A stretch of DNA of 64,000 nucleotides, from the IMG/VR virus record IMGVR_UViG_3300046001_008198, positions 1 through 64,000 of that record; one strand, 5' to 3'. Source of the stretch: a virus. The translations under genes and the position numbers were made by a program. Positions within the stretch are counted from its first letter, which is position 1. Each line of letters begins with the position of its first letter. The notes under the pieces were generated by a model. It did no database searches, had not been told where the DNA came from, and was given only the letters and a program-made list of their open reading frames with translations. Below, piece after piece: positions 16,434 to 39,481 of this stretch.

Positions 16434-19400
16434 ATGAAAGTTTGTATCACTGAAACATCTTTGGAATTATTTGGAAATTTTTTCAAGAGAGCAATTCAAG
16501 CACAGCTAGAAAAAGATCAGACATACGATATGATTGTGAAAGAGCTTTATAAAGAAGCTCTTCTCGCATTTAATAAAGATGGAAATTCTGAAGACTCTGA
16601 AGTAATATTGCAACATTTATTTGTAATTCCTCAATTGATAACAGCTCAGTTTGGAAGTAAGCCTGGTTCAGTTACAGCAGAAGTAATGGCAGCCGCAGGT
16701 AAAGATGCTTCATTTGTATATGAACAGTTGCAAACTCCTACATTAGAATCTATTCAGGGAGTAGTAAATCATTTTGCTAAACTCAGTAATGAACAATCGG
16801 TTGAAGTAGATGCTGGTGTTGAACCTCAATGGTTTGATGCAATATCTACTACATTATTTAGACTTTCTTTTCAAGGCTCATTACTTAATCCTCAATCAGG
16901 AACTTATCATGATAACATCGATGATCCTGCTAAAGTTTTAGAGAACAATGTTATTCGTAAGGTTCTGAATAATCAGAATGATAAAGGGTATAAACTTCAA
17001 ATGATGACTCTTGCTCAAGCAAAAGCATTGGGTAATGTTTCAGATACAACTAACTATCGTGATGAGCAATTACCTGTAATGGTTTTAGTAAATGAGTCGG
17101 GTAAAGTTTTACGGTTTGATGAACAAGGAACTGTAACCGAAGATGGTGGAATTCCCGTGTTTCCAATTAAAACTAAAGCTGAACAGTTTAATTACAATAA
17201 GGAGTTACTGATCGAACAAAATATGAGTATCGCTGGTGTTACCAGAGAAGCAGCTGTGAAAATGGCTAATGATTTAATTAAATCTTATTTAGACAATGTG
17301 TCATACGGTTTATCTCAAATTGCTGCAGGTACTGAAGTCTTTGCTGATATTGATATGGCTGAAAGTCAAGTTGGATTTTTACAATTGAATACTCTTAATT
17401 CTACACCTCTTAGAGATGTGACAAATTTATCAGAGTTAGAATTTAAAGTATCTGTTGGAGCCAAGCAATCTAAACAACTTCTTGTATTTGCGCCAAATAG
17501 TTCAAAACCTTGGAGTTTGGATAGAGGAACATTAGATTCTTTATCTCCTGAAATCACTGAGGCTTTACTGGAATTGATGACCAATCCTTATTTGAAAAAA
17601 GATGGATCCTTAATTTCTCTTACAGAAAGATCTAATATGATTTCGATGTATATTCAACAAGGTGATTTTGGTCATGTTGTATTTGAAAAAACAGATAATA
17701 AAAATAGTGGTGCTAAGTACAATGCTTATGCCAGAGAATGGTTTAAAAGTGCAACTATTGGTGGTATCAAATATAATATTGAAACACCTGCAGAAATTGA
17801 AATATTCAAGCAAGCCTTTGTGGATTTTACAAAAGCTTACAAATTTAAACCTCATAGTCCTTTAGCTGCTATAAGTGATACCGATCACAGACTTGTTTCT
17901 GATATGGAGAGTGTAACCAAACAGGGGCAAATTGTTAAACAAGAAGCAGGACATGTCATTGGATATAAACCTGATATTAGTTTTACCTTATCTGAAAAAG
18001 CTCAACTTGATGATTTAATTCAGGTCGTTATGGGTGTTAAAGATGGAGAACTTGTGATGAGTAATGTAATGACGCGTATGAGTCATATTACAAATCATGC
18101 GATGAATAATATTGTAACCAATAAAAATGGAGAAATCCGCGGAGCTGGTTCTTATATAGCATTTGCTCCAATTAAGCAGAAGGTTGTATTTGATAAAACA
18201 AAACTTCCTCCTCGCCGTATGAGTCTTGAGCAAAGAAATCGTGCCAGTGCTGTTCAACCTTTTGAGGAGACAGAAGCGGACACATGGTTCAAGAATCATC
18301 CAATGGCTGGAGTGCTTAATTTAATTGTTACGGATCAACTTAATTCAAAAGGAAAAGGTTTTCTTGCTGATTTTTTCATGAATACAATTACTTTGTACAA
18401 AGGTTCTGATAAAACTTCTTTATACCATGAGGTTTATCATGCTTATTTTAATGGAATTCTTAGTAAAGCTGAACGCGATGAAGTATATGGTGAACTTAGA
18501 AATCAAAAAGGTTCATTCACTACAGTAGTTAATGGTAAAGCTAAGACTTTGAATTATTCAGATGCTACTGATTTAGAACTGGAAGAATTTTTGGCAGAAG
18601 AATTTAGAAGTTATGCGCGTAATGAAAGCAAGTATAACAAGCAGCCTGAAAGTAAAATTGCGAGATTCTTTAAGTATCTCTTAGAATTGTTTAATTCATT
18701 TTTTGGAAACAGAACTCATGCTGAAGTTAGAGCTTACGGTTTACCTGAATTAGTGGAAACTTCTTTCAGAAATTTATACAAAGGTAACATCGATGCTTCG
18801 AAATTTGTAACTCCTATGATGAGTGAAGCGTTGAATCAATCTGTAGAAACAGGTATGGATTTTACGCATCAGGAAGTTTCTATTGTAATGGGTTCCATGA
18901 ACTCAATGGTTTCAGATTATATTCAGACCGTTCTTAATAAATCAATTAATGCAGATCAAATTTCTGACTTAATCTGGTATAGACAAATAATGGTTACTAC
19001 GAATGTAGAATCAGAAGAATATCAAACAGCTTTAGGTTTGTATAATGAAAGTATGGGTAATTCTACAACTCATGGATACGGTGTTTTTCAATTACAGGAT
19101 CCAGAACTTTTTGGAGAAATGTTAATGAGTCATATTCTACCTGTGTTTGAATATCAGTTAGAGGTAGCAAAAGCAGAGTTAGAAGAAGATCCAACTTCTA
19201 TTCTTGCCCAAAATAATGCTGATCTATTAAAAAAAGTATGGGATAATTTTGGAGATGCTACTATAAATCCTATTAACCATCTAGGGAAAACAGATAGTAT
19301 TATTGGATTATATTTAAATAATTATGCATTTATTAAACCAGATGCTTCTTTTGGAGCAGCTTTAGATGTAGATACAAATGATTTCAATGATGCTGAGGCT

Positions 19401-22400
19401 GTTGAAGCTTTTTATAAAGACAACAACAATACATCACCTTTTGATTTAGCTGATGAGCATACAAAGATTTTATTGTCTATGATTCAAGGATATACTCATA
19501 ATGGTATGGGTACACCTATAATTAATAGATTGGGTATTCCAACACTTCGGAATCCTAAAATTATTATGGGTAAAATATTAAAACTTACAGCAAATCAAAT
19601 CACTCCTGAGGATATTCTTGATGCATTAAAAACAGCAGCATTAAAAGATAAAGAGATTGCTCAATTGGTTGCAATATTAGGACCTCTCCGTGCTACTATG
19701 GAAGAAGGTGTGGATAATTCTATATCCGTACAGATTACAGAGCATGAGCAAAAGCAGTGGAGTGGTTTCTGGGGAAGTATTAACAAACCATCAGTTCCTT
19801 TATTGCAGACAACTATTGAGCGTACAAAAATTAAAACTTTTGATGAGGAAGGGAATGAAATTGAATCTTCAGAAGGAACTTTAGAATTGAGATCAGGAAG
19901 AGTTGGAACACAGGCTAGTCAGATTATTAGAACATGGGGTGATAATTTTAATTACAATTCAACAGCTCAGGGTGCATTTTATAAAACTGCTTTAGATTTA
20001 AGAGTTTTAGATATGGAGTTGTTGTTAAGTACTTATGAATCATTAGGGTTTGCACCTTTAGATGCGACTAATTCTTTTGATATGTTCCATACAACAAAAC
20101 AAGTTGGTCGTAAGTATAGAAAATCTGTAAGAGCTGCAATGGCAATGCCGATGTATGAAGCAGATCCATTTGGTTTTCTTGAGCAATTAGGAATGATTCT
20201 TCCTCACACCGATGAAATAAGAGAAATCTTAATGGTTGGTTCAGCAGAATATGATATTCCTGGAGGGTTATTAAATAACTTAGTTGAAGTACTTCGAAAT
20301 AGACCATCTGGTTATTCAATAGAATCCTTTGATGATTTATTTAAAGCATACGATTATATAAATTCAGCAGGTGAAACTGTAACTGTATCACCGGAAGGTT
20401 ATAAAAAAGAGTTTGCAAAAATATCTGAATACTTTGATGACTCTCAAGTAAGTAGTATGGCTCGAAGAGCTGATGGTGAAACTCAATCTGAGCGTCCAAT
20501 GCATTCATCCCTTACTGTTGCTATAGCTACAATCAATTCAGCTAAAAGTTATCAGGAATTAATCAGCACTCCAGGTATGGAGTTTTGGGATATTAGTAAA
20601 AATCCTATAATTGGATCAAGTATTTTGACTCAGATGTTCCGCTTGGATAATCCTGAATTCTATGGTAAGAGAAATCAAAATATCAAACTACATCTTAATT
20701 TATTATCAGGATCCAAATTGATTAATGGTACTGCAGAGAATGGTGTTTCACCAATTGATTCTGATAATACCACTAAGTTTATTACAGATGTATATGACAC
20801 GTTCTCTGGACATCAGGAAATATTGCGGGCTGCTGATAAATCTACATCTCTTACATTCTACAATACTTTTATTAGAAAAGGTTCTACTAAAGCTGAAAAA
20901 GGTGCTATTGTTCCGATGGAAGAATCTCAGTACATGTTTGGCAAGAATTATAAATCGACTTCTTTATCTTTCTACAATCAGTTCGAAAATCATTTAGAAG
21001 CTGAGTTAATTAGAATTACACGCATTAAGAATTTGAAAAAAGAAATTAAGGATAATCCAGATAAGACTTATGCTTTCGACAAAGCTTTTATGGATCGAGG
21101 TGAAGGCTTTAATGTATTCGATGTTATTCTTCAGGATGATTCTTTACGAGATGCTTTGACAAGTTTAAATCTTAATGAGAATTTTATAATTGGAAAGATT
21201 CTTCCTAAAGAAGTTAAAGCAATGATTGATAAAGAGCTGCGTAATTATTTCATTATGAGGTCTTCTGAAATCTTACAAGATAAAGGAAAGCTACTACCAG
21301 TGATCGATAGTGTTAAAGAAAAGCACGGGGCTAAACAATCAAATGAAGAATTCAAAAAGGATTTACTTGACATGTTCACTGTAAATAACTTTATTCAAAA
21401 TCTTAATTACGCTGCTTTATTCTTAGGAGATTCAGCTTTATATAATGTTGCGGGTGAAGATTATCACAAGCGTATTGCTGGTATGATTTCTACAGGTACA
21501 CTATTTAGATTTGATAACTCTTGGTTTGATCATGTCAATACTCCTGAGTTCGGATACGATGCCTTTGCTAAAAAGCATTTATCTGAGAACATGGAAAGAA
21601 TCCAGGAGCGTAGACCTGATTATAAAAAGCCTGTTGCTAGAACATATATAGGTTATTTGAATACAGCTGTAATTCGAGAATCACAACATGACTCTGTGTA
21701 CGCGGATCATTATATGAAGATGGCAGGAATTGATGCTACTGAGTATAAAAATATGAAAGAATCCGATGGAGCTGGTTGGATAACAATGGACTCTTACAGA
21801 ACCATGGCTAAATCTTCTAATGATTGGTCACAAGGACAAGAAGATGTATTCCAAGCAATGCTTAAAGGTGAGGAAATCGATTATGATAAAGCGATTGCGA
21901 CATTCCCAGTTCGTAAATATCAGTACTACGGTCCTGTAACTACAGATAATAACCGTGCTGATGCAGGAAAATCTCCTGACTTAGGAATGATTGCCTTCCA
22001 CAAATATTCATTAATGCCTCTTATTCCTTTGGCTATTAAGGGGACAAAGCTTGAACAGTTGAATGAGAAATTGATGGAAGACGGTGTTGACTATGTAACA
22101 ATGGCAACAGGTTCGAAATTATCCACAGTTTCAAAAATCAATAGTGATAATTTAAATTCTGCTGCAGTGTATGATGATTTGTATTCTGAGGACAGAGAAA
22201 TTTTATTTGATACAGATATCACAAATAATAAAATACATGTTCGGTTCTTAAAAAGACAAGTACATATTGCTGAAGGATTCAAGGGTAAAATTAATTTGCC
22301 TTCTCAGATCCGTAAAATGATTTATCTGGGTGTATCTAACAACGGTGTTCCTATTGACAGCGTTGCTGATATAGATAATATCGCTGATAATGAGTGGACA

Positions 22401-25400
22401 AACATTAAAAAATCTCTTAAATTTAATTCTCGATTATCCAACTGGTTAGCTGAAACAGAACATACTTTAGCTATGTACCAAAAAACTTTGAAAGAAGAAT
22501 TGTTGGCTGATATTGGAATGACTGAACAAATAAGTAAAGATCCTGCAGGAAATGATGTTGTAAGTTACAGCGGAAATAATGATAAGCTAAAAGAATACAT
22601 TCAGAATCAATTGCGTAGTAAAGAATTACTTCCTGCTGAGGTTGAATTTATTATCGATAAAAATACGGGAGGTCTTCGAAGTGATTTATCTACATCGTTG
22701 AATGCCGAAACTATTGAAAAGATTTTGGTAACAATGATTGATAAAAAACTTCGCCGAATTAAAGTAACAGGAGAAGGATTTATTCAAGCTGCTGGATCTA
22801 TGTGGGAGCGGGTAGATTTTAAAAAGCCGACTGCTGAAGATTTAGAAACTTTTGGAACTAATGGTTTAAAAACATATCATCTAATTGATAAAGATGGCAA
22901 CATCATAACTGATCCTGCTCGTAAAGGAGAAGCTGTTCGTATTTCCAAAATGGAAGTAAAAATTGCAATGCAAGGAAGTTTTAAATTATTATTTGATCTG
23001 GATGACCATACTGGGAAAAAGATTAAAGTAATGAAGACTGTTACTAATTCAAAAGGGGTTACTAAAAACATTATTGATATGGAAGCGAGTATCGCTAATT
23101 TGAATAATGCTTTGAGAAATCAGGAATGGCGAGATAAACATGAACCGCTACTTACTTTAGCAGGTCCTCGTATCCCAACACAGGCGCAAAACTCTTTGGA
23201 GGCTGCAGTTATTGCTGAATTTTTACCACCATCTGCAGGAAATATAATTATTCTTCCTTCAGATATTGTTGCAAAAACAGGAGCGGATTATGATATTGAT
23301 AAGTTGTTCTTGAGCTATCCTAATATTGTTAAGATTGGAAAGTCTATTGAGTTACAGAAACATATTCCTGGTATTACCGAGTCAGATGATGCATTGAATA
23401 CTCAAATTGATAATTTGTATTTAGAAGCAGCGGGGATAGGTACTCAAATAGATGCTATTTATAAAAAGAAACAAGTAAAATTTAATTCTCTTTCTGTTGA
23501 AAAAGAAAATATTCGTGAATTAATTGCCGATCAGTTTTACATACAATCTTTGGATTTAGATAAAATTAAACAGCTGCAGATAAAAGTTACTAATATTCGG
23601 ATGAAGGAAGGTATGTATGAAACAATGCCTGTATCTCAAATGAAAGATGAATTACAGAAAACAATTAATCAGATTGATGTATTAATGGAAGCTCAAGAAG
23701 AGGTTGAGAAAAACATTAAGAATTATATGATTGCTGCTTTCGGAACCGATAAATATAATGAGTTGTTCATTGCTGAAAATAATCAAATATCAGAATTGGA
23801 GAATCAAAAACAAGCTGTTTATAATAAACTGGATTCGGTAAAGCGTGCTCTTTATGGTAAGAGTACTAAGGGCTTACAGAATGACATCCTAAGATTATTT
23901 GCAGAGCGTATTACAATGCCTGATAATTTTGGCGAATTGGTTAAGGCGAATCACACTCGTAATACAAAACCTGTGTTTGCTGCTAATAGTACACCTGAAA
24001 CAGTTAATGATGATATTATTTTTGAAGAGCTACAGGACTCTAATCAAATGGCCTATGATAAAAGAAATCGTGGTAAAAAAGGTACACCTGCAGGTATAAA
24101 AACTATTGCTAGTACAACCATCTTTGATTACATGTACAACTTACAAAAGCACGAAGAGAATACTGTTGGTATGGAATCTTTGGGAATCGCTGCTGTAGCA
24201 TCAACATACCATGCTGTATTTACACGTATGGGGGCGGCATTAGAAGGAGTACTTCCAGGAGAGAATGAAAGCATCCGAAAGGTTGTTCAAGATCACTTAG
24301 CGTCAATGAAAGATAAAAGTGTTAAAAGTAATTTGGAAGCTTTTAATTCATTGACAAAAAATTATAATAGCCGTACTTTGAGATTCGCTCACAATAAAAT
24401 TATTGATGAAACAGGTATTCAAATATCATTAGGTTCAATTAAGAGTTCTGATGGTAAAGTAATCTCGGATCTTATCGGCCAGTTGATTAATGGATACGTG
24501 GATGTTGCCAAAGATGCATGGATTTTTAATATTCAAGGTAATAAAGAAAACACACCTCAGTTATTATTTATGATAATGACAGGAGTTCCAATCAAGAGTG
24601 CTATTTATTTCTCAAGTCTTCCAATGATTAAAGAATACAATCGTATGAAGAAAGAATTGGTAGGTGTTTACGCGGGACTTGCTAACGGAAGTGGTTCAGT
24701 TTACACAAAAAGCAATGCTAAAAAAGAAGTTATTCGTAGATTGATTTCTAAATATCAGGATGCTATTCCAAAGGAATTGAAAGGAATCGATGTTGCTGAA
24801 AATCACAGGGCTCTTGCAGCATTGACCGAAGGGGAATTCGATCTTGCTAGTATTAAAAACATGATTAAAGAAAAAACTCCTTCTTACAGACAGTACGAAG
24901 CATTCTTGCATTATTTGGAAATAGAAGAGATGGCTGATGATATCAGTCAGTTCGAATCTGTAACTAAATTTGATACAGCGCAAACAGCGTCATTAAGTGA
25001 TGCTCAGAACCGTATTAATACAACTGCAGCATATCGTGATAAAACTTCTAAAGGAAGACGATCTGTAGTTCCTTCATCTTGGTATAAAGATTACTCAACT
25101 ACTTCTCCTGGTATCATGAATAATGATGACTTTACTATTAAAATGTTTAGTCAATACTTCCGATTAAGAAATCATCCACTGGTACTTAAAGCTAGTGCTA
25201 TGAAACTATTGGATAAAGATAAGAATGAAGCTTTGGGGTATGATATATCAACCCTGAGAAATGATTATAAGAATGACTTCTTATTTTACCTGTATCAAAA
25301 TGCAGTATGGAGTGATTCGTCTTACAACGGATTCACATTTAAAAGTGATGCTACTTTAGAGGATGAAGTGTTAATTGATGAAGAAGGAATGGTAATGTAT

Positions 25401-27935
25401 TACAATCCTGAAAAATTAAGACATGGTAGGACTCAGCATAATTATGAATTTAGCACAGCTCAAAAGAACAGTGATCCTACAAATCCAACTTACTTCTTTC
25501 CTACAGAGGCAATGTATTTGGCTTATAGATTGGAATTAGGTAAAGCCCGAATGATGAGTGAGGAAGAACTAAAAGAAAAGTATTCATATATGGTGTCAGA
25601 AAAACTTGCTGGTACAACCAGTGGTGAAAGTTTAAGAAGACGTATTGCATTATATAAGTCCAATAACCACATAGCATTCTTTAATTATCGATGGGGAATG
25701 GCAGGAATTCTTAAAGGTTTGGAAAGAAATAATCCTGAATTAGCTGGACAGTACGATCTGATTGATCACATCCGTGCTGATTATGATGCCAAAACTAAGA
25801 AGAGTAACTTAAAGCTGACTCAGGTTAAGGATGCAGACTTTTCTATTGTGTACCGCGAGAACTTAGAGGCACTGAAATCGTCTAAGATTCCTGAAATTGC
25901 AGAGTTCTTTAGTAAGTTTGAACACATGGCTATTATGCAAACAGGAATGAATAGAAGATCTACTTTTGATTTGACTCCTATTGTTGACCAAGAGAAGTTG
26001 CATTCTGTTATTGATTCCAATTATGGAATTGAATCTATTATTCAAGCATTGGATAGAGATTTGAATGCTGTAATAAAAGGTAAAAAGAAAATAGCTGAAG
26101 TTCCTTATTTAGGAGATTTCGATACTAAGTTTAAAGAGATGGTTGTTTCTTCTTATAAGCAGCGGGTCCGAGGTCACAATTATGTATCCGATGGTTCTAT
26201 TAAGGCTGCTACTAAACAAGTATCCGGAAAGAATGATAAGGTTGCTTTGATTTCCTGGTCGTATGTTGAAAATGAAATTGGAAATAATTTTGAAGAGCTT
26301 TCTAAAGTATTGGATAAAAGCTCCATGTTTACAGCAAAAAGAATCAATGAAGCTTACCTTCGTAAGATGCAGAGTTTACCTCAAGTTTATTTGGTTAAAG
26401 AAAAAATTGTTGCTCCTACACCAGCATTGCAAGAAAAGTTGGATACTCTTTTACAATTGTATTTTGGAATTGATAACACAGGTAGTATTCCTACATGGAA
26501 TGTTGTTGGTGCAGGACAAACAAAAGATAATATGTCTATTGCCGACAGTAAAACTTTAATGGAGCGTCATGGTATTAAAGATGAAAAGATGGCTAATATT
26601 TCTTCCAAAGCTATTGCTAGATCTGTTTCTGTAAAAGACAGTAGGCTTTCATCAACACAATCGTATATCGATGTTATCAATAAGAAGTATCCAGAAAGAT
26701 TAGCTGGAAATGTAAACTCTAAGTTTAGTTCTAAAGATAATGTGTGGATATTTGGTGCAGGTATTTTCAAAAATGCTTATGATGGTGTTTTAACAGAAGC
26801 TGAGTTTACTAAAAAAGTCAAGGATGAATTTGATGACTACTACGTTACAGAAATTGAGAAAGCTCTGAAAGCAAAAGTAAAAGTATTTAACATTGGTGTT
26901 GCTTCAGGTATTGACCAAATGGCTCGTGAGCACCTTAAAGAAAAAGGATTTATTGAAGTATATAAATACACAGCAGGTGGAGTTTATGTGACTTTATCTA
27001 CTCCTGAACTTGCATCTAGCGATATGTACGATGTTACTGCTCCTGAAATAGTAATGAGTAAATACTCAGGGTTTGGTAAATTTAAATCCGCTATTTATAA
27101 CAACAAGGTTATGACAACTATAGCAGGTACTACTAGCGAGAAGTTACTTAAAAATTCACCACTTCCTTATGTTGGTCCTTTTGTAGAATCTTTTTTGAAT
27201 ACACTATGGAATGCTCCAGGACAATATCAATACGAGATGGGCTTGCTTATGGCGAAACCAGGAAGGATTGTAATCGGCGATAGTATCATTGAAAGATTTG
27301 CTGAAGTGTATCTTATGCATAAGCGAAAAACTTATGGTAAAAAAGCAGCGCCTGTAGGTGTTGGAATTTCTTCTTTGTCAGAAGGTCAAAGGGCTGCTCT
27401 TAATAAAGAGAAACCTAATCAACAGCAATCTTTAAATATTTATTTTAGCACAAAAGAAAATGCTGATTTGAGTAATTTTGCTGAGAGACCTATAACTCTT
27501 AATGGTCAAACATTTAGAACACCTGAAGGTGCTTTTCAAGCTATGAAAATATTTTTTACAAATGCTGTTTTATTAGGTACTCCTGCCAGTAAAGAAAATT
27601 TAGAAATACTTGAAAAATTAAAAACTGCAACAGGAGCTGAAGCAAAAAGTTTAGGAACTAAAATTAAAGATTTATCAACTGCAACTTGGGATAGAGATTC
27701 ATCAGGAGTAATGAAAAATATACTTACACTTTCTTTTGAACAAAACCCACAAGCTTTAGCTAAACTTTTTGCTACCGGAAATGCTGTTCTTACACATACC
27801 CAAGATAAAGGTAAATGGGGAACAGAGTTTCCAAAATTACTTATGGAAGTAAGGAGTGAATTAAGATCTGAAGAATCTAATCCAAATGATATCACCCAAG
27901 AAGATGTTGATAAAACCCCAAATTGCGAAGGATAA
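16434..27935 (+). CDS. Giant crAss-like virion RNA polymerase polyprotein with zincin, SLOG-like and NADAR segments (3,833 aa)
   Basis: Several parts are visible. (1) A zincin motif H665-E-V-Y-H669 is followed by an EEFLAEEF helix that could give the third zinc ligand. (2) HKYSLMPLIP (K1857) and ATGSKLS (K1895) match the lysine motifs of the first double-psi barrel in YonO/crAss-like RNA polymerases. (3) RIPTQ..NS at about 2245 precedes KTGADYDIDKLF, in which D2285, D2287 and D2289 form the DxDxD metal site of the second barrel. (4) A Rossmann/SLOG-like segment spans about 3438-3530 (WIFGAGIF, NIGVASGIDQMA). (5) A C-terminal NADAR domain covers about 3668-3812 (ADLSNF, PEGAFQAMK, LLMEVRSEL). 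Known crAss-like RNA polymerases are injected and transcribe early genes. The N-terminal 600 residues are unassigned. The start codon follows the upstream TAA directly. The polymerase assignment is strong; the domain borders are approximate. Confidence 0.93.
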   Translation: MKVCITETSLELFGNFFKRAIQAQLEKDQTYDMIVKELYKEALLAFNKDGNSEDSEVILQHLFVIPQLITAQFGSKPGSVTAEVMAAAGKDASFVYEQLQTPTLESIQGVVNHFAKLSNEQSVEVDAGVEPQWFDAISTTLFRLSFQGSLLNPQSGTYHDNIDDPAKVLENNVIRKVLNNQNDKGYKLQMMTLAQAKALGNVSDTTNYRDEQLPVMVLVNESGKVLRFDEQGTVTEDGGIPVFPIKTKAEQFNYNKELLIEQNMSIAGVTREAAVKMANDLIKSYLDNVSYGLSQIAAGTEVFADIDMAESQVGFLQLNTLNSTPLRDVTNLSELEFKVSVGAKQSKQLLVFAPNSSKPWSLDRGTLDSLSPEITEALLELMTNPYLKKDGSLISLTERSNMISMYIQQGDFGHVVFEKTDNKNSGAKYNAYAREWFKSATIGGIKYNIETPAEIEIFKQAFVDFTKAYKFKPHSPLAAISDTDHRLVSDMESVTKQGQIVKQEAGHVIGYKPDISFTLSEKAQLDDLIQVVMGVKDGELVMSNVMTRMSHITNHAMNNIVTNKNGEIRGAGSYIAFAPIKQKVVFDKTKLPPRRMSLEQRNRASAVQPFEETEADTWFKNHPMAGVLNLIVTDQLNSKGKGFLADFFMNTITLYKGSDKTSLYHEVYHAYFNGILSKAERDEVYGELRNQKGSFTTVVNGKAKTLNYSDATDLELEEFLAEEFRSYARNESKYNKQPESKIARFFKYLLELFNSFFGNRTHAEVRAYGLPELVETSFRNLYKGNIDASKFVTPMMSEALNQSVETGMDFTHQEVSIVMGSMNSMVSDYIQTVLNKSINADQISDLIWYRQIMVTTNVESEEYQTALGLYNESMGNSTTHGYGVFQLQDPELFGEMLMSHILPVFEYQLEVAKAELEEDPTSILAQNNADLLKKVWDNFGDATINPINHLGKTDSIIGLYLNNYAFIKPDASFGAALDVDTNDFNDAEAVEAFYKDNNNTSPFDLADEHTKILLSMIQGYTHNGMGTPIINRLGIPTLRNPKIIMGKILKLTANQITPEDILDALKTAALKDKEIAQLVAILGPLRATMEEGVDNSISVQITEHEQKQWSGFWGSINKPSVPLLQTTIERTKIKTFDEEGNEIESSEGTLELRSGRVGTQASQIIRTWGDNFNYNSTAQGAFYKTALDLRVLDMELLLSTYESLGFAPLDATNSFDMFHTTKQVGRKYRKSVRAAMAMPMYEADPFGFLEQLGMILPHTDEIREILMVGSAEYDIPGGLLNNLVEVLRNRPSGYSIESFDDLFKAYDYINSAGETVTVSPEGYKKEFAKISEYFDDSQVSSMARRADGETQSERPMHSSLTVAIATINSAKSYQELISTPGMEFWDISKNPIIGSSILTQMFRLDNPEFYGKRNQNIKLHLNLLSGSKLINGTAENGVSPIDSDNTTKFITDVYDTFSGHQEILRAADKSTSLTFYNTFIRKGSTKAEKGAIVPMEESQYMFGKNYKSTSLSFYNQFENHLEAELIRITRIKNLKKEIKDNPDKTYAFDKAFMDRGEGFNVFDVILQDDSLRDALTSLNLNENFIIGKILPKEVKAMIDKELRNYFIMRSSEILQDKGKLLPVIDSVKEKHGAKQSNEEFKKDLLDMFTVNNFIQNLNYAALFLGDSALYNVAGEDYHKRIAGMISTGTLFRFDNSWFDHVNTPEFGYDAFAKKHLSENMERIQERRPDYKKPVARTYIGYLNTAVIRESQHDSVYADHYMKMAGIDATEYKNMKESDGAGWITMDSYRTMAKSSNDWSQGQEDVFQAMLKGEEIDYDKAIATFPVRKYQYYGPVTTDNNRADAGKSPDLGMIAFHKYSLMPLIPLAIKGTKLEQLNEKLMEDGVDYVTMATGSKLSTVSKINSDNLNSAAVYDDLYSEDREILFDTDITNNKIHVRFLKRQVHIAEGFKGKINLPSQIRKMIYLGVSNNGVPIDSVADIDNIADNEWTNIKKSLKFNSRLSNWLAETEHTLAMYQKTLKEELLADIGMTEQISKDPAGNDVVSYSGNNDKLKEYIQNQLRSKELLPAEVEFIIDKNTGGLRSDLSTSLNAETIEKILVTMIDKKLRRIKVTGEGFIQAAGSMWERVDFKKPTAEDLETFGTNGLKTYHLIDKDGNIITDPARKGEAVRISKMEVKIAMQGSFKLLFDLDDHTGKKIKVMKTVTNSKGVTKNIIDMEASIANLNNALRNQEWRDKHEPLLTLAGPRIPTQAQNSLEAAVIAEFLPPSAGNIIILPSDIVAKTGADYDIDKLFLSYPNIVKIGKSIELQKHIPGITESDDALNTQIDNLYLEAAGIGTQIDAIYKKKQVKFNSLSVEKENIRELIADQFYIQSLDLDKIKQLQIKVTNIRMKEGMYETMPVSQMKDELQKTINQIDVLMEAQEEVEKNIKNYMIAAFGTDKYNELFIAENNQISELENQKQAVYNKLDSVKRALYGKSTKGLQNDILRLFAERITMPDNFGELVKANHTRNTKPVFAANSTPETVNDDIIFEELQDSNQMAYDKRNRGKKGTPAGIKTIASTTIFDYMYNLQKHEENTVGMESLGIAAVASTYHAVFTRMGAALEGVLPGENESIRKVVQDHLASMKDKSVKSNLEAFNSLTKNYNSRTLRFAHNKIIDETGIQISLGSIKSSDGKVISDLIGQLINGYVDVAKDAWIFNIQGNKENTPQLLFMIMTGVPIKSAIYFSSLPMIKEYNRMKKELVGVYAGLANGSGSVYTKSNAKKEVIRRLISKYQDAIPKELKGIDVAENHRALAALTEGEFDLASIKNMIKEKTPSYRQYEAFLHYLEIEEMADDISQFESVTKFDTAQTASLSDAQNRINTTAAYRDKTSKGRRSVVPSSWYKDYSTTSPGIMNNDDFTIKMFSQYFRLRNHPLVLKASAMKLLDKDKNEALGYDISTLRNDYKNDFLFYLYQNAVWSDSSYNGFTFKSDATLEDEVLIDEEGMVMYYNPEKLRHGRTQHNYEFSTAQKNSDPTNPTYFFPTEAMYLAYRLELGKARMMSEEELKEKYSYMVSEKLAGTTSGESLRRRIALYKSNNHIAFFNYRWGMAGILKGLERNNPELAGQYDLIDHIRADYDAKTKKSNLKLTQVKDADFSIVYRENLEALKSSKIPEIAEFFSKFEHMAIMQTGMNRRSTFDLTPIVDQEKLHSVIDSNYGIESIIQALDRDLNAVIKGKKKIAEVPYLGDFDTKFKEMVVSSYKQRVRGHNYVSDGSIKAATKQVSGKNDKVALISWSYVENEIGNNFEELSKVLDKSSMFTAKRINEAYLRKMQSLPQVYLVKEKIVAPTPALQEKLDTLLQLYFGIDNTGSIPTWNVVGAGQTKDNMSIADSKTLMERHGIKDEKMANISSKAIARSVSVKDSRLSSTQSYIDVINKKYPERLAGNVNSKFSSKDNVWIFGAGIFKNAYDGVLTEAEFTKKVKDEFDDYYVTEIEKALKAKVKVFNIGVASGIDQMAREHLKEKGFIEVYKYTAGGVYVTLSTPELASSDMYDVTAPEIVMSKYSGFGKFKSAIYNNKVMTTIAGTTSEKLLKNSPLPYVGPFVESFLNTLWNAPGQYQYEMGLLMAKPGRIVIGDSIIERFAEVYLMHKRKTYGKKAAPVGVGISSLSEGQRAALNKEKPNQQQSLNIYFSTKENADLSNFAERPITLNGQTFRTPEGAFQAMKIFFTNAVLLGTPASKENLEILEKLKTATGAEAKSLGTKIKDLSTATWDRDSSGVMKNILTLSFEQNPQALAKLFATGNAVLTHTQDKGKWGTEFPKLLMEVRSELRSEESNPNDITQEDVDKTPNCEG

Positions 27936-28522
27936 TGAGTTGTACATTAGAATCAAGACAAGCGGCTGTATTGGATACAGTTGCTGATATTTTTAAGAGT
28001 AAAACGGCTGACCTTGCTTTAGAGCAGGTTGGCCCATACTCTTTTATAGCTACTCCAAATAAGAGTAACACTCCTAGAAATTTATTAACCCGTGTGGCTA
28101 AAGCTCAGAAGGATGTATCCGATGTACTGGAAAAGAATCCTGAGTTCGGTGCTAAGTTTGCTTTTGGATGGGTGACTAGGAATTCAGATAATCCCCGTAA
28201 AATAAAGATAGGGTTAAAGGTTCCTGATAATTACACAAAGCTTCTGGAAGTAAAGCTTGGAAGTAAAAGTTTAGCTGATGTAAATAAAGCATTGGCTCAT
28301 GAAAGAAATTATAATTATTTTCGTGACAGAGGATTGTTTGAACAAGAGCAGCGTGAAAACACAATCGATGATAAGTTTGACCAGGAGGAGGAGGAAGAAT
28401 TGGAACTGGTTACGGATCAAGAGACAGGCCTTCCTGATTGGAATTATGATGCAACTAATGATGTATCTGTTCGAATTAATGATGAGGACTTAAATGAATT
28501 AATGAAATCTAAAAATTGTTAA
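27935..28522 (+). CDS. Small unknown protein between two giants (195 aa)
   Basis: The ATG at 27935 overlaps the preceding TAA by one base (TAATG). An in-frame TTG at 27923 would add four residues and is less likely. The first half looks like a small alpha/beta domain; the C-terminal third is strongly acidic (DQEEEEELEL and later NDEDLNELM). There is no known motif. It is separated from the next giant by one base, so it belongs to the same transcription and translation unit. It could be an accessory or chaperone-like partner of the giants, but nothing in the sequence proves this. Confidence 0.8.
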   Translation: MSCTLESRQAAVLDTVADIFKSKTADLALEQVGPYSFIATPNKSNTPRNLLTRVAKAQKDVSDVLEKNPEFGAKFAFGWVTRNSDNPRKIKIGLKVPDNYTKLLEVKLGSKSLADVNKALAHERNYNYFRDRGLFEQEQRENTIDDKFDQEEEEELELVTDQETGLPDWNYDATNDVSVRINDEDLNELMKSKNC

Positions 28523-28523
28523 G

Positions 28524-31500
28524 ATGGGAATGTGCTTTCGTGATAAAAATGAAGAAACCAAGTTTAAAATTCTAGCAGGTGTTGTTGGTGAAAAAGAAGC
28601 ATGGAGAGATTTCTTTGAACAGAATGGTAATGTTCGTCCACCTTTAGTTGTTGTTAAAAAAATTGAAGATTTAGGCAATCAACCTGTAGCTATCGATGAA
28701 TTTCAGGAATATTACGAGAGTCTTCCTGAGGCAATTGATGAGCTACCAGTTGAACAAATCAACAATCTTTTGGCTGCAAATAGCAGAAAGGAAAGCATGC
28801 GTGCTGTGGAAACATTAAGTAAGCAGTTAGGCATTGAAGCAATTATTGTTACTCCACAGGAAGCGATGGAAATGAAGAAGTCTTCGGATCCAGGAATGGG
28901 TTTTTTCAGATCAGGAAAAGTTTATCTTGTCGAAGGAGCTTTTGATGCTGATACAATCTTCCATGAATTTTCACATCCTTTGGTTAAGAGTTTATCCAAA
29001 AATAATCGAGAGGTGTTTGAGTCTTTATTCAATGAAGTAATGGCATCGGATTTAGGGTTTCATTTAGTTTCTGGCATGGAGTCTTCTTCTTTAGATCCTG
29101 CAAGTAATGAATACAAGGAAGAGGTTATAGTAAGAGCAATGGAATTAATTAATCGGGAAGTTGTGGCTAAACCACAAAGCTGGTTAGATAAATTATTTTT
29201 TGCTTTTCGCCAGATGTTGAGAAAGGTTTTTAAAATTGATGCCTCTAAGCTGGCTCCTACAACAACACTCAAGCAATTGGTTACGATGCTTAATCAAGGC
29301 GATAGTTTTAAGTTAGACTATGAGGCTTTGAATGCTGATGATACTTTGATGCTCAAGATGGAGTCAGATGAATTAATGAAAAGAATTAATCAAGCTGGTG
29401 CTGATACTGCTCAAAAAATAATCAATGAGTTTGCTGATATGATTAAAGAGCAGGTTGCTGCAGCAGGAAAGCCAAATTCTATTTACTCTCAAATTGCAGA
29501 AGGTTTTACTAATGAAGAGAATGATGGTCTTCTACAAAACCTTCGTAAGATTACTGAGGTATTGAGCACTTCAGACAAATCCCGTAAAGCTGTCAAGTCA
29601 TTATCTGCTAATGTCCGAGATCAGGAAATAAATGAAGTTGTTACCAAACTGGAATCTATATTCAAAAGCATTGCCAAAGGAGAGGAAGTATTCAAAATGA
29701 TTCAGGAAAAAATGGCGATTCTTGAAAAGAAAGATGGAGTCATTGAAGATTTGGACGCGTTGCATGCACTTGGTCAGTATGCGCTGCAGTGGGATAACTT
29801 CTTGAATAAAACTTTGGATAAAAATGCACTCTACATGAATTTGTATAGTGATAATCAAGAAACAGCTTTTACCACTAGAATGACAACACTTGCCGAAAGT
29901 GCTACCAATTTAACCAGAGATATTGCAATTCAAAAAGCCCGTCTTGTTTCCAAGATAATAAGCGATCAGGTGAATAAAGAAAAAGCTCCTGTTACCGCTG
30001 CTTATTTGAAAAACCTAGATCAGTTGAGAGATTCAGGAAATATGAGAGATTATGATCGCATGCATACTGAATTTTATGGACTTTCTCCAGATGAGATGTT
30101 GGAATACAATCGATTGAACTCTGCCACTCCTGGAACCTTAACTGTAGCACAGCAGGAACGCTATACTAATTTTAGATTTTTAAAAACTCAAGGAACCGAA
30201 GTTACTCCCGATACAATAATGGATATGCTTATGGGACTTTCTCCTGATGCGGTTGCTTTAAATAATATTATTGAGGGTGCAGCTAACAGTCAGGATATAG
30301 TTGTAGGTGGGCTTCATACATTGGTTCGTAATCAAATGAATGAACTTCATGGTATTATGAATTCAAATCAAGCTGAGATGCTTAATAAAATTAATCCTCA
30401 CTTGAAAGCTACTGGATGGGATAAGAAAAGACATTTCGGAACCAATGGTATTGGTAGTGCTTTAAAGCAGGTTACTAATGTTGGACGACTTGTCAATAAT
30501 GAAATAGAAGATTTCCACGATTATCAATTTATGAATAACTTCAAAGATTGGGAAAAGGATATCAGTGTGTTACAGCATTCTATTAAATTGGCGGCCGATG
30601 AATATAAAAATTCTGGATTAGATGAGCATTACGATGAATACTTGAGAGCTACTGAAGCACTGGAAGATTTTAACAGGGCTTACATGCATCAAAAATATGT
30701 AGATGAGTATTACGATGTTCAGAAACTATTAAGAGGTGACATCGGTAGAGAAGTGCGTAAAAGACTTCATTTGTTTTATGGTGAAATGAATGAGATGCAG
30801 GATCTTGAATTACCTATTTGGGATCATCGTCAAACAGATCACATAAAAAATAAGTGGGTTGAGCTACGATGGATGAGTAGTATATACAATGCAGATGGAA
30901 CTGAGAAAGTTGGAAGAGAAAAAGAAATTGCTGAAAGATTGGCTGAATACAATGAGAAATCTCAGAAGTTTAAAGAGTCTGTTCGAAAAGAAGGAGTTTT
31001 TGAATTAGCTTACAATACTTTTGTTGAGAACTGGTTGGATGAAAATCCTGATCATACAATTGGAAGTTCTGCTTTCGAAGGGGCTCGTAATAGTTGGATG
31101 CGTAAGAATACTACTGTTCAAATTGATGAGGCTTACTATGAAAAAAGAGCTGCTCTTTATGATGAGAAGTCTGTCATATTAAAGAAGTTTAATGAGTTGA
31201 ATAAAGATATTGCTGATGTTGGAGATTTATACAAACAGATTTATGATTTGAATAAAAAGTCTAAAGATGATCAAGGTCAGTATGATGGGACAGCTCTTTC
31301 TGCAGCAAATCAGATCCGAATCAGGGATATGCATATTGAAATCGAAGAAGCAACTGAATTGTATTATCGAAGAAATGGATTAACTAAAGAGGAATACCGT
31401 GAGTACCGTGACATCATGATATATTTTGATACCAATGGTCATCAGTTTGAATCACCTACGGCTGAGTCGAGATACATGCAGCTTAAAGAATTGATTAATG

Positions 31501-34352
31501 AAGGATTAAAAAATGCAAAGTTTGGAATAACTCAAGATCAAGTTGAGCGATTAGCTGAAATTGAAAAAGAACTTTCTTCTATGCGTACTACTACAGCTAC
31601 AGATTATTATGCTGCAGCTTTTGTATCTATTCTTAGAGAAAAAGGAAATGAAACAGGTTTGGAAATTTTTGATGAGTATGTTCAGGGATACGGTTATGTT
31701 GTAGGTGAAGATGATATTCCGGAAGATGTTATTAGTAAATTTCTTTATGAAGAAGAATTCTTACTGGATGAAGTTAAAGCAAGCGCTCCTACTTTTGCTG
31801 AGTGGTTTGACAACAACCATTACGATAAAGAAAAATTTGTTTTAATTGAAGATGAAGAGGGTGAGAGCAGAGGTGAATATAGAATGGTTCCTGAGAAAAC
31901 AAGTCTCTGGTCTTTTACAAAACCTTCTGATAATCTTTATTACAAAGCTGAACCAATGTATGATGCTCAGGGTAACATTGTTGGTGTATTTGAACTGGAT
32001 CATACTCCTCGTGTTCCTAACATGACTTTCTATAAAAGTGTTGTCAAAGAAGAATACAAAACTGAGATTGTAGAAAGAGATTACATTGATAATAATGGGA
32101 ACTTGGTATTAGCAAACATTGATAATCGAAATAGATTTCTTCCAAAAACTCCGCAACAAGGTGCTAGCAGCAGTAAGTACATCAATCCTGATTACCAAAC
32201 TATGTTTGATACCGATCATGATTTATGGAATATGCTGGATGAGTTTAAGAACATCCATTTAGATTCTCAGATTGGTCTTGATAATGCCCAGAAATTAGGA
32301 TTGAGTTATCCTTCAGCAAGAAGAGCTGGTTTAGAGAAGTTTACTCCACATAAACCAAAAGAGGCAGCGCGTAGATTTGTAAGTAATACATTACAGATGG
32401 TACATTCTCAAGCGGATGATTACAATTTTGGTTTGATGATGAAGCCTATTGGAACTAAAAAACTTGATGAGTTTGGTAGACCTGTCTACGGTACATTTGA
32501 ATTGGATCTGGACGATCGTAGTTTGGATATCATTGATTTAATGATGCAGTATCAACAAAGTGTTGAGTCATTTAAACTTCTACGAAAGAATTATTCAGTG
32601 GCCAAAACTTTACAAGAACTTTTAGCTGGTGAAACCATTGCTCCTCAAATCAATAAATTCAAAAAAGAATTAGATTTTGTAGCTGCTGTTTCAAAGAATC
32701 CAAATGTTGTACATAGAGCAAAGGCTGTTAATCAAATCTTTGAAAGACATTATGAAGGCGCAGGGCTTACTTCTTTTGGTGAAGGAACTATTGGACGGGA
32801 AGCAACACGTATGGCTCACAGAGGTGTAAGTGGAATATCATCTCTTTCAAACAGGAAGTTCTTCTTTTTCAATTGGATGTCTGATGCTACCAATGCTGTT
32901 TCAGGAAGAGTACAATACGGTTTAATTTCTGCAACTAGATCTGGTGATTATTTCAATATGAAAAACTGGATGGTTGGTGAAAAGAAAGCTTCTTCTACAA
33001 TTTCTCAGATGTTGGCATTGACTTATTCTTCTAGTACACGGGGGGTTGATGTCCAATTGGCTCAATTAATGAACGCGGCTCCTGATAAATTTGAACATGA
33101 AATTGGAGATGCAGGTAGTCGTAATGCATCCAAAGATGCTTATGAAGGTAAAGCAGGTTATGCTGTAAGAGCTGTACTACAACATCAGTTGGAACTTGCA
33201 GCTTTTTACGCGTTACTTGATAATCAAAAATATAGATTTCAGATAAATGGAACTGGTCCGCTTACTACTTTGGATAAATCGGTTGAACTTCGTAATGGAA
33301 AGATTCATACAAAAGATGGAGTTCCTCAGGAATACAGTATTAGTTATGATTCAAAAGGTACACTTATTTTAGGTGATAAATTGAAACAAATTATGAATCA
33401 CCATAATGGATTTTTAGTAAAAGCTACAGGTCTTGCAGGTAAGTTTAGCCAATCTGAATTTATGAATAGATGGCTGCTTGGTAAAATAATGCTGATGGTA
33501 TTAAGATTTGTTCCTGGTATGACTATGGATCGATATCAATTTAAAATCAGGAAGGATATGCCTAAGTCGGCAATGACTAAATCAGGATTAGGGTATTCAG
33601 GAAGAGCAATTAAGGGATTGTTTACAGGAAATATACAGGCTCGTTATAATTGGGATACAAAACAAGCCGAGATCGGTATGTATGTTGGAGCTTTGCAATT
33701 TTTTCAAAGAACTGTTACTGGAAGATTGAGTAATGTTTCGAATAATGAGTACGCAAGAGAAAATCTTCGCGGATTATTTGGAGTTGCTTTAACTAAAGCT
33801 ATGCAGGCTTTGATTCTTTCAATGTGTTCGGGTATGGTGTTTAATGATGACGATGACGATGAGTATAATGATTATCAGTATGATCCTAACAATCCTGATT
33901 ACCAATCTTTAAAAGCTTCTGCTACACTACCGAGACTTCCTGGGGTTGATCCTAAGTATGCTGCATCAAAAGGTATGTTTGAAGTAGGTGATTATGCACA
34001 ATTAGTTGCATTACGACTTGGACTTCGGGTAGAAAAAGAAACTGATACATGGAATCCTTTAACTCTTACACCTTTAGTAAAAGATATTATCTTAGGAAAT
34101 GGTCCTGCGGGTGAGGGTTCTGTGAAAGATGTGTTTGAAATAGTTAAGCTTTTAACTTTGGAAACTAAGGCTGCTATGGGATTTGAAGTCCAAGATTCTA
34201 AATTAACTATTGGAGCAGATGCAGGTCCTTATACTTGGCAGAGAGAAGGTGAAAGAAAAATTTGGAATGTTACAGGTCGATTATTTGGACTGAACGGAAG
34301 TATGATCAATCCAGCCCAAGCAATCGAAAATGAAGCGGCTTTCGCTAAATAA
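28524..34352 (+). CDS. Giant late protein 3 with N-terminal zincin motif (1,942 aa)
   Basis: H147-E-F-S-H151 lies in a helix after a beta strand (KVYLVEGAFDADTIFHEFSH), the normal setting of an HExxH zinc metallopeptidase. A Glu-rich helix about 35 residues on (EEVIVRAMEL) could hold the third ligand. Residues about 250-1000 are long, charged and probably coiled-coil. Residues about 1440-1480 are aromatic-rich (KFFFFNWMSD). Near 1760-1785 a hydrophobic stretch (AMQALILSMCSGMVF) is followed at once by an acidic run (NDDDDDEYND). This suggests membrane interaction. It is the last + strand gene, ending one base before the stop of a convergent gene. It is probably packaged with the RNA polymerase giant. 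Whether the zincin acts on host or phage proteins is unknown. Confidence 0.85.
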   Translation: MGMCFRDKNEETKFKILAGVVGEKEAWRDFFEQNGNVRPPLVVVKKIEDLGNQPVAIDEFQEYYESLPEAIDELPVEQINNLLAANSRKESMRAVETLSKQLGIEAIIVTPQEAMEMKKSSDPGMGFFRSGKVYLVEGAFDADTIFHEFSHPLVKSLSKNNREVFESLFNEVMASDLGFHLVSGMESSSLDPASNEYKEEVIVRAMELINREVVAKPQSWLDKLFFAFRQMLRKVFKIDASKLAPTTTLKQLVTMLNQGDSFKLDYEALNADDTLMLKMESDELMKRINQAGADTAQKIINEFADMIKEQVAAAGKPNSIYSQIAEGFTNEENDGLLQNLRKITEVLSTSDKSRKAVKSLSANVRDQEINEVVTKLESIFKSIAKGEEVFKMIQEKMAILEKKDGVIEDLDALHALGQYALQWDNFLNKTLDKNALYMNLYSDNQETAFTTRMTTLAESATNLTRDIAIQKARLVSKIISDQVNKEKAPVTAAYLKNLDQLRDSGNMRDYDRMHTEFYGLSPDEMLEYNRLNSATPGTLTVAQQERYTNFRFLKTQGTEVTPDTIMDMLMGLSPDAVALNNIIEGAANSQDIVVGGLHTLVRNQMNELHGIMNSNQAEMLNKINPHLKATGWDKKRHFGTNGIGSALKQVTNVGRLVNNEIEDFHDYQFMNNFKDWEKDISVLQHSIKLAADEYKNSGLDEHYDEYLRATEALEDFNRAYMHQKYVDEYYDVQKLLRGDIGREVRKRLHLFYGEMNEMQDLELPIWDHRQTDHIKNKWVELRWMSSIYNADGTEKVGREKEIAERLAEYNEKSQKFKESVRKEGVFELAYNTFVENWLDENPDHTIGSSAFEGARNSWMRKNTTVQIDEAYYEKRAALYDEKSVILKKFNELNKDIADVGDLYKQIYDLNKKSKDDQGQYDGTALSAANQIRIRDMHIEIEEATELYYRRNGLTKEEYREYRDIMIYFDTNGHQFESPTAESRYMQLKELINEGLKNAKFGITQDQVERLAEIEKELSSMRTTTATDYYAAAFVSILREKGNETGLEIFDEYVQGYGYVVGEDDIPEDVISKFLYEEEFLLDEVKASAPTFAEWFDNNHYDKEKFVLIEDEEGESRGEYRMVPEKTSLWSFTKPSDNLYYKAEPMYDAQGNIVGVFELDHTPRVPNMTFYKSVVKEEYKTEIVERDYIDNNGNLVLANIDNRNRFLPKTPQQGASSSKYINPDYQTMFDTDHDLWNMLDEFKNIHLDSQIGLDNAQKLGLSYPSARRAGLEKFTPHKPKEAARRFVSNTLQMVHSQADDYNFGLMMKPIGTKKLDEFGRPVYGTFELDLDDRSLDIIDLMMQYQQSVESFKLLRKNYSVAKTLQELLAGETIAPQINKFKKELDFVAAVSKNPNVVHRAKAVNQIFERHYEGAGLTSFGEGTIGREATRMAHRGVSGISSLSNRKFFFFNWMSDATNAVSGRVQYGLISATRSGDYFNMKNWMVGEKKASSTISQMLALTYSSSTRGVDVQLAQLMNAAPDKFEHEIGDAGSRNASKDAYEGKAGYAVRAVLQHQLELAAFYALLDNQKYRFQINGTGPLTTLDKSVELRNGKIHTKDGVPQEYSISYDSKGTLILGDKLKQIMNHHNGFLVKATGLAGKFSQSEFMNRWLLGKIMLMVLRFVPGMTMDRYQFKIRKDMPKSAMTKSGLGYSGRAIKGLFTGNIQARYNWDTKQAEIGMYVGALQFFQRTVTGRLSNVSNNEYARENLRGLFGVALTKAMQALILSMCSGMVFNDDDDDEYNDYQYDPNNPDYQSLKASATLPRLPGVDPKYAASKGMFEVGDYAQLVALRLGLRVEKETDTWNPLTLTPLVKDIILGNGPAGEGSVKDVFEIVKLLTLETKAAMGFEVQDSKLTIGADAGPYTWQREGERKIWNVTGRLFGLNGSMINPAQAIENEAAFAK

Positions 34353-38539: not shown

Positions 38540-39481
38540 TTAAAATTTATTTTTGACACAATGTCCGTGCGACATTTTATAGTCTTCCAATTCTTCAATT
38601 GTCATATGACCATATTTTTCTTCTGCTATGATTAGCATCTCAGGTAATAGTTTCTTGCCCCATACTCCAAGGTTGTCTACAATTTTACCTGTCTTTTGAG
38701 ATACAGCTTTTGTAAGATCTCCTTTGTAAGCATTGGCTTTTATCTTATTCACTTCCAATTCCACCCATTCTTCATATTCAAATGGCCATACTCTCCATAA
38801 ATAAAGTAATTCTTGTAAGCTCATGAAAGGACAAATCATGCAATTGCTCGGAGGTGGAACCGTCCAACCAGTTGACTTGATATAATCTTGACAAGCCTGT
38901 CTATCTAGTCCTAAGTCAATTAATGGATACACTTTGTTTATTGCAAGGCGCATCCATATAGCTATGCTGTCTTCATTTGTTGAAGCTCTCTTTTCTTCAC
39001 CTGCAGCAATTCCTAAAAGCATGTCAATTTTACCATACTTTTTAGCGAATTCTTGTAATGCTCTTTTAAGTCCTACTTTTTCAGTGCTGTATGTAGTGTG
39101 AACATATTGTTCTAACCAATTGTAAATCGGTGTAATTTTTAATTTATCCGTGCAAGTCTTTGGAAAAGCTTTGGATCCAATTGCATTTGCTGATCGGTAG
39201 AATCCTTTCAATCCTTTAGACCATGATGGGGAAGTATGTCCCATATCTCCAGTAATGAAGTAGAAAGGGATTTTTTTCTTTGCACACAATGTTTGCACCC
39301 ATTTTCGATGAGCTATTGTCTTTGGATGCTCATTACCTGTGTCAGCCATTACAACAATTAAATCTCCTGGAGCGTATGTCTTTTTAAAGAAAGGTTCATA
39401 GATGAGTCGATATAAAATTGCTGTGCTGTCTTGACCTGCTCCGAAACTTAATACTGTTAGTTTCGCAAGTTTATTCAACAT
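38540..39481 (-). CDS. PP-loop ATPase of the PAPS-reductase/adenine nucleotide alpha-hydrolase family (313 aa)
   Basis: The N terminus has the pyrophosphate-binding loop SFGAGQDSTAIL (residues 13-24), then VVMADTGNEHP, the strand and loop that follow it in PAPS-reductase-like proteins. A Cys pair near the C terminus (PPSNCMICPF) could bind a metal or Fe-S centre. Families with this fold include PAPS reductase (CysH), the DNA phosphorothioation protein DndC and tRNA-modifying enzymes; the sequence does not settle which. No other sulphur-assimilation or dnd gene is visible in the window. Nearby methyltransferases make a nucleic acid modification role worth considering. It overlaps the upstream gene by 11 bp. 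Confidence 0.8.
   Translation of the reverse strand: MLNKLAKLTVLSFGAGQDSTAILYRLIYEPFFKKTYAPGDLIVVMADTGNEHPKTIAHRKWVQTLCAKKKIPFYFITGDMGHTSPSWSKGLKGFYRSANAIGSKAFPKTCTDKLKITPIYNWLEQYVHTTYSTEKVGLKRALQEFAKKYGKIDMLLGIAAGEEKRASTNEDSIAIWMRLAINKVYPLIDLGLDRQACQDYIKSTGWTVPPPSNCMICPFMSLQELLYLWRVWPFEYEEWVELEVNKIKANAYKGDLTKAVSQKTGKIVDNLGVWGKKLLPEMLIIAEEKYGHMTIEELEDYKMSHGHCVKNKF

Follow-up and report, generated by a model that had tools for sequence, protein, structure and literature searches.

The window analysed here, the 64,000 nucleotides at positions 1 to 64,000 of the IMG/VR virus record IMGVR_UViG_3300046001_008198, carries on its plus strand a single open reading frame (ORF) of 3,833 amino acids (16434-27935) that encodes a Crassvirales virion RNA polymerase (RNAP) polyprotein and ends in a NADAR domain, the fold of enzymes that remove ADP-ribose (ADPr). 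The original prediction for this DNA had placed such a domain at the C-terminus of the giant ORF, at 27430-27935, and both the assignment and the coordinates prove correct, with the C-terminal ~150 residues confirmed as NADAR. When the whole protein is scanned, residues ~3661-3821 (27414-27896) match PF08719 with E=1.4e-10 and 42.1 bits (cut-off 35.1), and in a genome scan (E=1.4e-13) this is the sole PF08719 match within the 125,219-bp virus record. Furthermore, phmmer detects E. coli YbiA (2b3w) with E=3.4e-8, and a profile built from 20 relatives matches 2b3w with E=6.8e-19 and 8bau with E=1.7e-13. The AlphaFold2 model of the domain, computed from an alignment of 20 rows, adopts a YbiA-like alpha+beta fold at a mean predicted local distance difference test score (pLDDT) of 87.8 and a predicted template modelling score (pTM) of 0.82, and Foldseek places all three solved NADAR structures at the top of its PDB matches, namely 2b3w (E=2.4e-7, template modelling (TM) score 0.70), 8bau (E=5.5e-6, TM 0.63) and 8bat (E=0.056, TM 0.48), so that the structural comparison proposed as a check on the original prediction bears it out. 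Pfam, profile, AlphaFold2 and Foldseek together delimit the domain with short flanks to residues 3653-3821 (27390-27896, plus strand). A second NADAR-like stretch in the same protein (residues 3005-3120, FFPTEAMYLAYRLELGKA) was dropped, as the NADAR hidden Markov model (HMM) gave no match there and no relatives were found among the loci.

The transcription proteins of crAss phages are large multidomain proteins, and the carrier of the domain is one of them. By tblastn, residues 2023-2722 match 28 crAss-phage records, one of which (BK010471) is annotated as the RNAP catalytic subunit, and the catalytic DxDxD motif of the RNAP beta-prime type, ADYDIDK (23283-23303, plus strand), lies in a block detected by its HMM with E=9e-27; the claimed fusion of NADAR to a giant RNA polymerase is thereby established. 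In the cultured phage PhicrAss001, mass spectrometry locates the RNAP proteins gp47, gp49 and gp50 in virions, from which they are modelled as being ejected before the DNA (PMC10172136), and for the RNAP of phi14:2 Yutin et al. (PMC7886860) cite both a location in the virion and early transcription. The window polymerase belongs to the same protein family as these virion-located proteins and is, by analogy, probably packaged in the virion and injected into the host; the predicted delivery of NADAR with an injected polymerase is upheld to the extent that the gp47/gp49/gp50 data extend to it. PhicrAss001 itself is not among the phage records that match the window NADAR, and cr126_1 has a gp50 homologue (gp003) that carries a NADAR near the N-terminus.

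The N-terminal part of the polyprotein further displays a zincin-like metallopeptidase signature, HEVYH (18426-18440, plus strand; GTxYHExFEAxW in the relatives' consensus), an HExxH motif for which the Pfam scan returned no matching peptidase family. The window protein combines RNAP core, zincin motif and NADAR, and its relatives hold other modules. This layout resembles that of the polyvalent proteins on N4-like virion RNAPs, which are fused to a zincin peptidase and an ADP-ribosyltransferase (ART) (Iyer et al. 2017, PMC5512222): both are giant multidomain virion RNAPs with a zincin peptidase or, in the window protein, a putative zincin-like motif and with host-directed enzyme domains, and some crAss relatives carry ART-PolyVal. 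The window protein differs from them in that its RNAP is of the Crassvirales two-barrel rather than the N4 type, in the presence of NADAR and in the exchange of single-domain cassettes described below.

NADAR enzymes share two broadly conserved residues (8bau E43 and K50, equivalent to E88 and K95 of E. coli C7 NADAR). The catalytic position in the last strand, the third, is Glu in YbiA, Asp in DarT1-linked proteins and His in phage (PMC11543638, PMC11125620). The equivalents in the window are the catalytic Glu E3698 (27525-27527) and the ADP-ribose-binding Lys K3705 (27546-27548), both invariant in the relatives and in an alignment with T4 gp30.3, YbiA and 8bau, together with H3788 (27795-27797, in the tripeptide LTH), which occupies the last-strand catalytic position and aligns with the His of T4 gp30.3 (all on the plus strand). 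The motifs listed in the original prediction are located at 27522-27548 (PEGAFQAMK), 27708-27722 (VMKNI) and 27837-27854 (LLMEVR); the point it overlooked is that the third residue is His, neither Glu nor Asp. All crAss-RNAP NADARs aligned keep E, K and His when set against T4 gp30.3, YbiA, 8bau and five further phage NADARs; T4 gp30.3 has the same His, and the five further phage proteins have Glu. Because most relatives had been found by motif searches that included the His stretch, we rescanned independently using the N-terminal NADAR motif alone as a DNA pattern, which returned 49 loci; His is present in 40 of 40 evaluable copies, and no complete ORF among the 49 is below 600 amino acids in length. 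The phage gp30.3 family profile PF08010 scores the window protein at 14.3 bits, below its cut-off of 36, and we therefore treat the domain as a gp30.3 relative and do not class it as a family member.

Judged from these residues, the domain retains a complete active site of the phage type (His, as in T4 gp30.3), and none of the three catalytic residues has been lost. That the domain might be an inactive remnant or a mere linker, as the His in place of Glu or Asp and the linker-rich surroundings could suggest, is accordingly very improbable: His is standard in active phage NADARs (PMC11125620), so that H3788 reads as the gp30.3 variant and not as a catalytic loss, E, K and H are invariant, and the ratio of nonsynonymous to synonymous substitutions (dN/dS) between NADAR copies, at 0.13-0.46, indicates purifying selection on the domain. 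T4 gp30.3 is likewise phage-encoded, with the same fold and the same catalytic trio of E, K and His, and hydrolyses guanine-ADPr in vitro on both DNA and RNA (PMC11125620, PMC11833690); it is, however, a separate protein of 152 amino acids, whereas the window NADAR sits inside a virion RNAP of thousands of residues. We infer that the window domain would act as an ADP-ribosyl hydrolase as well.

The original prediction had called for a survey of crAss-like RNA polymerases, and the fusion is indeed found in relatives: an HMM scan of the fetched loci, redundant contigs included, detects the RNAP DxDxD block in 62 of the 76 NADAR-bearing ORFs, and the remainder are mostly split or cut by contig ends. 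Named gut phages with the fusion are Kolpuevirus cr126_1, Cacepaovirus cr131_1, Chuhaivirus cr130_1 and Buhlduvirus cr272_1, the last three translated with TAG as Gln, and the NADAR-bearing protein of cr126_1 bears the RefSeq name 'DUF1768 domain-containing protein'. In a sample selected by RNAP core, NADAR is present in 4 of 75 non-redundant RNAP ORFs, a lower bound given the cut ORFs and one from a sample skewed towards the group of locus L007. Metagenome contigs such as those surveyed may be cut or chimeric, and contig redundancy persists in some of the counts. A single origin of the crAss NADARs is not rejected (p-AU 0.68, approximately unbiased test), in a tree weakened by long branches. 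One locus, L095, holds a divergent gp30.3-like NADAR in the N-terminal slot (residues 1674-1798), perhaps a second acquisition from a separate gp30.3-like lineage. A cellular origin was considered and set aside, as a motif-seeded search, which distant relatives can escape, found no close relative of the domain in 84,980 cellular species genomes. As a separate observation, a Ruminococcus-binned crAss-like contig (L194), perhaps recoded, shows a NADAR-like match across two ORFs at 12548-13921.

Comparison of related phages reveals that NADAR is gained, lost and swapped as a self-contained cassette of ~450 bp at no fewer than two positions in the polymerase gene. The RNAP ORFs of L043 and L129 are ~95% identical, yet the former carries NADAR as an in-frame insert where the latter has an empty site. 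L002 and L008 are 96.6% identical over the ORF and have identical cores, against 62% identity in the NADAR domain, of which the first two thirds have been replaced (26-80% identity in 50-column windows). Conversely, L009 and L037 have NADARs that are 97.5% identical on cores that are 28% identical, sharing 455 bp of DNA at 98.7%, and the NADARs of L043 and L045, at the N- and C-terminal sites, respectively, are 91% identical on cores at 28%, with 448 bp shared at 92.6%. The window itself shares 416 bp (27435-27850) at 90.6% identity with L004, and in these last three pairs the shared DNA is limited to the domain, with nothing further at E 1e-8 in the compared stretches. Across 47 proteins (1,081 pairs), NADAR and RNAP-core identity are nearly uncorrelated (r=0.15). 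The domain lies either 593-1,501 residues after or 583-1,821 residues before the DxDxD block, and the eight rows with N-terminal copies require seven changes in the tree. Recombination through conserved ends was considered as a mechanism and not adopted: codons are shared more often than expected throughout the domain, and although this sharing is highest at the N-terminal end (0.67 versus 0.49) it is not confined there, so that no specific mechanism is shown.

NADAR is not the only occupant of such sites. In L121 (3701-6100) a P/A-rich RNAP linker holds an insert (TYAGIGSRETP...) that is called SLOG-like from its motif and has no Pfam match, and L126 provides the clean empty site. These arrangements bear on whether NADAR serves the polymerase itself, for example by binding ADP-ribosylated nucleic acid or, as transcription proceeds, by removing ADPr from the RNAP or from the template. 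Such a role would fit the covalent link of almost every NADAR to an RNAP chain and the fact that guanine-ADPr in RNA is a NADAR substrate (PMC11833690); the varying position relative to the core, the clean absence from near-identical RNAPs and the SLOG-like domain in a comparable linker nonetheless speak against a constant function in transcription, which we consider distinctly unlikely. The linker upstream of the core also differs among L009, L093 and L095, which are 87-97% identical, and the first two hold other inserts. The 36 NADAR-bearing tails contain 2-oxoglutarate (2OG)-Fe(II) oxygenase (7), cpYpsA SLOG (6) and superfamily 1 helicase (3) domains and, more rarely, DUF7831 (2), DUF1848 (1) and ART-PolyVal (1), whereas tails without NADAR hold chiefly helicases (5 of 32). 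We also observed that the AlkB-like 2OG-Fe(II) oxygenases (7/36) and cpYpsA SLOG domains (6/36) of NADAR-bearing tails compare with 1/32 each in tails without NADAR, and that the C-terminal ~1,500 residues of cr272_1 gp23 (L025) comprise DUF1848, DUF7831, a DprA-like SLOG match and, by eye, an ASCH-like stretch. The window protein has a candidate SLOG-like Rossmann stretch of its own, seen by eye only and unproven (residues ~3434-3510, VWIFGAGIF...VFNIGVASGIDQMAREHL, 26733-26963, plus strand), for which there is no Pfam match and no relative among the loci or viral contigs, and an alignment-free AlphaFold model reaches a pLDDT of 44.

We propose that the window NADAR is probably a passenger ADP-ribosyl hydrolase on the virion RNAP, delivered at entry against host defence based on nicotinamide adenine dinucleotide (NAD). 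In this model, the particle would contain the RNAP and release it before the DNA, so that the attached NADAR would arrive in the host cytoplasm ahead of any phage gene expression. Its most likely task there would be to cut an N-glycosidic bond to ADP-ribose that a NAD-based host defence has formed, either in a soluble signal (cyclic or linear ADPr) or on a guanine of DNA or RNA, and gain, loss and swapping of the cassette would match the weapon to changing host defences. The patchy, domain-precise exchange suggests a delivery slot for counter-defence enzymes, and the NAD/ADPr-related partners in the RNAP tails, cpYpsA SLOG and ART-PolyVal, point the same way. On contextual grounds, Iyer et al. 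(PMC9503650) argue that soluble ADPr signals are what phage NADAR, SLOG and Macro domains mainly counter, and phage enzymes that degrade cyclic ADP-ribose signals are described in a 2026 preprint (PMC13232231). The original description of a defence module built into the transcription machine thus stands in part, with gain, loss and swapping that resemble an arms race; the domain it had pictured as built in moves as a cassette, and most relatives lack it.

Several points weigh against this proposal. Most of the compared pairs come from metagenome contigs, where single cases could be assembly chimeras, even though the pattern recurs in many contigs, and the low correlation between NADAR and core identity may be due in part to very fast evolution of the RNAP core. 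NADARs can also act on riboflavin-pathway intermediates, making a metabolic role possible (PMC11543638), and, with respect to a DarT1 target, none of the 28 DarT-bearing genomes among 297 Bacteroidota sampled has a NADAR. The metabolic role would make the domain a YbiA-like housekeeping or nucleotide-salvage enzyme that cleaves damaged or riboflavin-pathway N-glycosides and merely rides on the polymerase. Riboflavin intermediates are substrates of YbiA-family NADARs (PMC11543638) and YbiA, grouped with plant COG3236, is the best PDB match of the window domain; YbiA, however, has Glu where the window has His, stands alone in E. coli and is tied to riboflavin intermediates or DNA damage, whereas the window domain sits on an entry protein, is exchanged between phages and is found in few of the core-selected relatives, and we hold a housekeeping function to be unlikely.

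The same Bacteroidota genomes bear on the original suggestion that NADAR undoes DarT-type ADP-ribosylation of phage DNA at entry, which they do not favour. Guanine-ADPr made by DarT1 is reversed by NADARs (PMC11543638), T4 NADAR is active on guanine-ADPr in DNA and RNA (PMC11125620, PMC11833690), and DarT does occur in 28 of the 297 genomes. The absence of NADAR from all 28 nevertheless suggests that their DarTs are unlike guanine-type DarTG1, thymidine-ADPr is not reversed by the NADARs tested so far, and the His-type T4 enzyme, active in vitro, fails to rescue cells from DarT1 (PMC11125620). Furthermore, the DarTG1 antitoxin NADAR (BC4488 family) resembles the window domain in fold, E and K residues and membership of the ADP-ribosyl hydrolase superfamily but has Asp in the last strand and an adjacent DarT; the window has His in place of the Asp typical of DarT1-linked NADARs, and no DarT is found in the phage within the 125-kb record. 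Reversal of DarT is thereby lowered to an improbable explanation, on a sample of 297 genomes that was drawn around one Chitinophaga genome and may not represent the hosts of the window phage. Taken together, anti-defence cargo probably explains the attached NADAR best, and we infer both its target, soluble ADP-ribose or a guanine adduct, and its benefit to the phage.

The polymerase gene lies in an operon of cargo genes, all on the plus strand: it is preceded by a 2,082-residue ORF with a single Cys at residue 2081 (10185-16433) and followed by a 199-residue ORF (27923-28522, likely ATG at 27935, MSC...KNC with Cys at both ends) and by a 1,942-residue ORF (28524-34352) with an N-terminal MGMC (C4) and C1768 and without a C-terminal Cys. 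The PHROGs scan did not recognize the structural genes of the window. By eye, an ORF on the minus strand (38540-39481, start MLNKLAKLTVLSFGAGQDSTAILYR) resembles a phage PAPS-reductase/PP-loop enzyme.

Independently of NADAR, we observed a pattern of cysteines at the junctions of these proteins. The giant RNAP ORFs are almost Cys-free (0.07-0.08% of residues), but 107 of 111 have a Cys within the last eight residues (background 0.077%), and in 100 of 107 loci the gene after the RNAP starts M-x(0-6)-C, usually with the sole Cys there. In the window the chain runs from the 2,082-residue protein (C2081) through the polymerase (C4, C3831) and the 199-residue protein (both ends) to the 1,942-residue protein (C4, C1768), and NADAR lies between the RNAP core and the conserved terminal C3831 (27924-27926, plus strand). 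The single Cys of PhicrAss001 gp47 (2,341 residues) is residue 2339 and that of gp49 is residue 5, and gp50 (2,412 residues) has Cys at 5, 1334 and 2404; the pattern is still present though gp47 is encoded on the opposite strand. We hypothesize from these positions that the facing terminal cysteines may join the giant cargo proteins end to end by disulfides. A 4.8-Mb Chitinophaga sp. YR573 contig (L160, 3-15452) encodes a crAss-like RNAP and its downstream partner as one ORF of at least 5,150 amino acids with no Cys, possibly an integrated crAss-like element and a natural control for the junction cysteines. There are exceptions: in L002, L013 and L039 the RNAP has its N-terminal Cys, but the protein encoded upstream has no Cys at its end; by analogy with PhicrAss001, the true partner may be encoded elsewhere.

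More broadly, and tentatively, the Crassvirales virion RNAP could be an exchangeable chassis in which linker slots flanking the core take single-domain cassettes (NADAR, SLOG and others) that recombine with domain precision among phage genes of otherwise great divergence, so that each phage would inject a locally chosen anti-defence enzyme on its polymerase, with the parts perhaps joined through cysteines into an ejectable train. Phage NADAR and SLOG proteins are typically standalone according to sections of Iyer et al. 2022 (PMC9503650), a term search of which gave no mention of crAss. No description of a NADAR attached to crAss RNAPs turned up in our literature search; what is new is the fusion of NADAR to a crAss RNAP and, above all, its exchange as a cassette, with one RefSeq entry already annotating the domain.

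Crassviruses are the most abundant viruses of the human gut, and to our knowledge little is known of how they overcome host immunity at entry. If the proposed role is true, a NADAR attached to the injected polymerase would be on hand before phage genes are read. Pairs of nearly identical phages that differ in the presence of the domain or in its allele constitute natural experiments, and the dozens of diverse His-type NADARs assembled here supply material for the enzymology of the natural substrate. Reading the other occupants of the same slots may, in turn, offer a route to new counter-defence domains.

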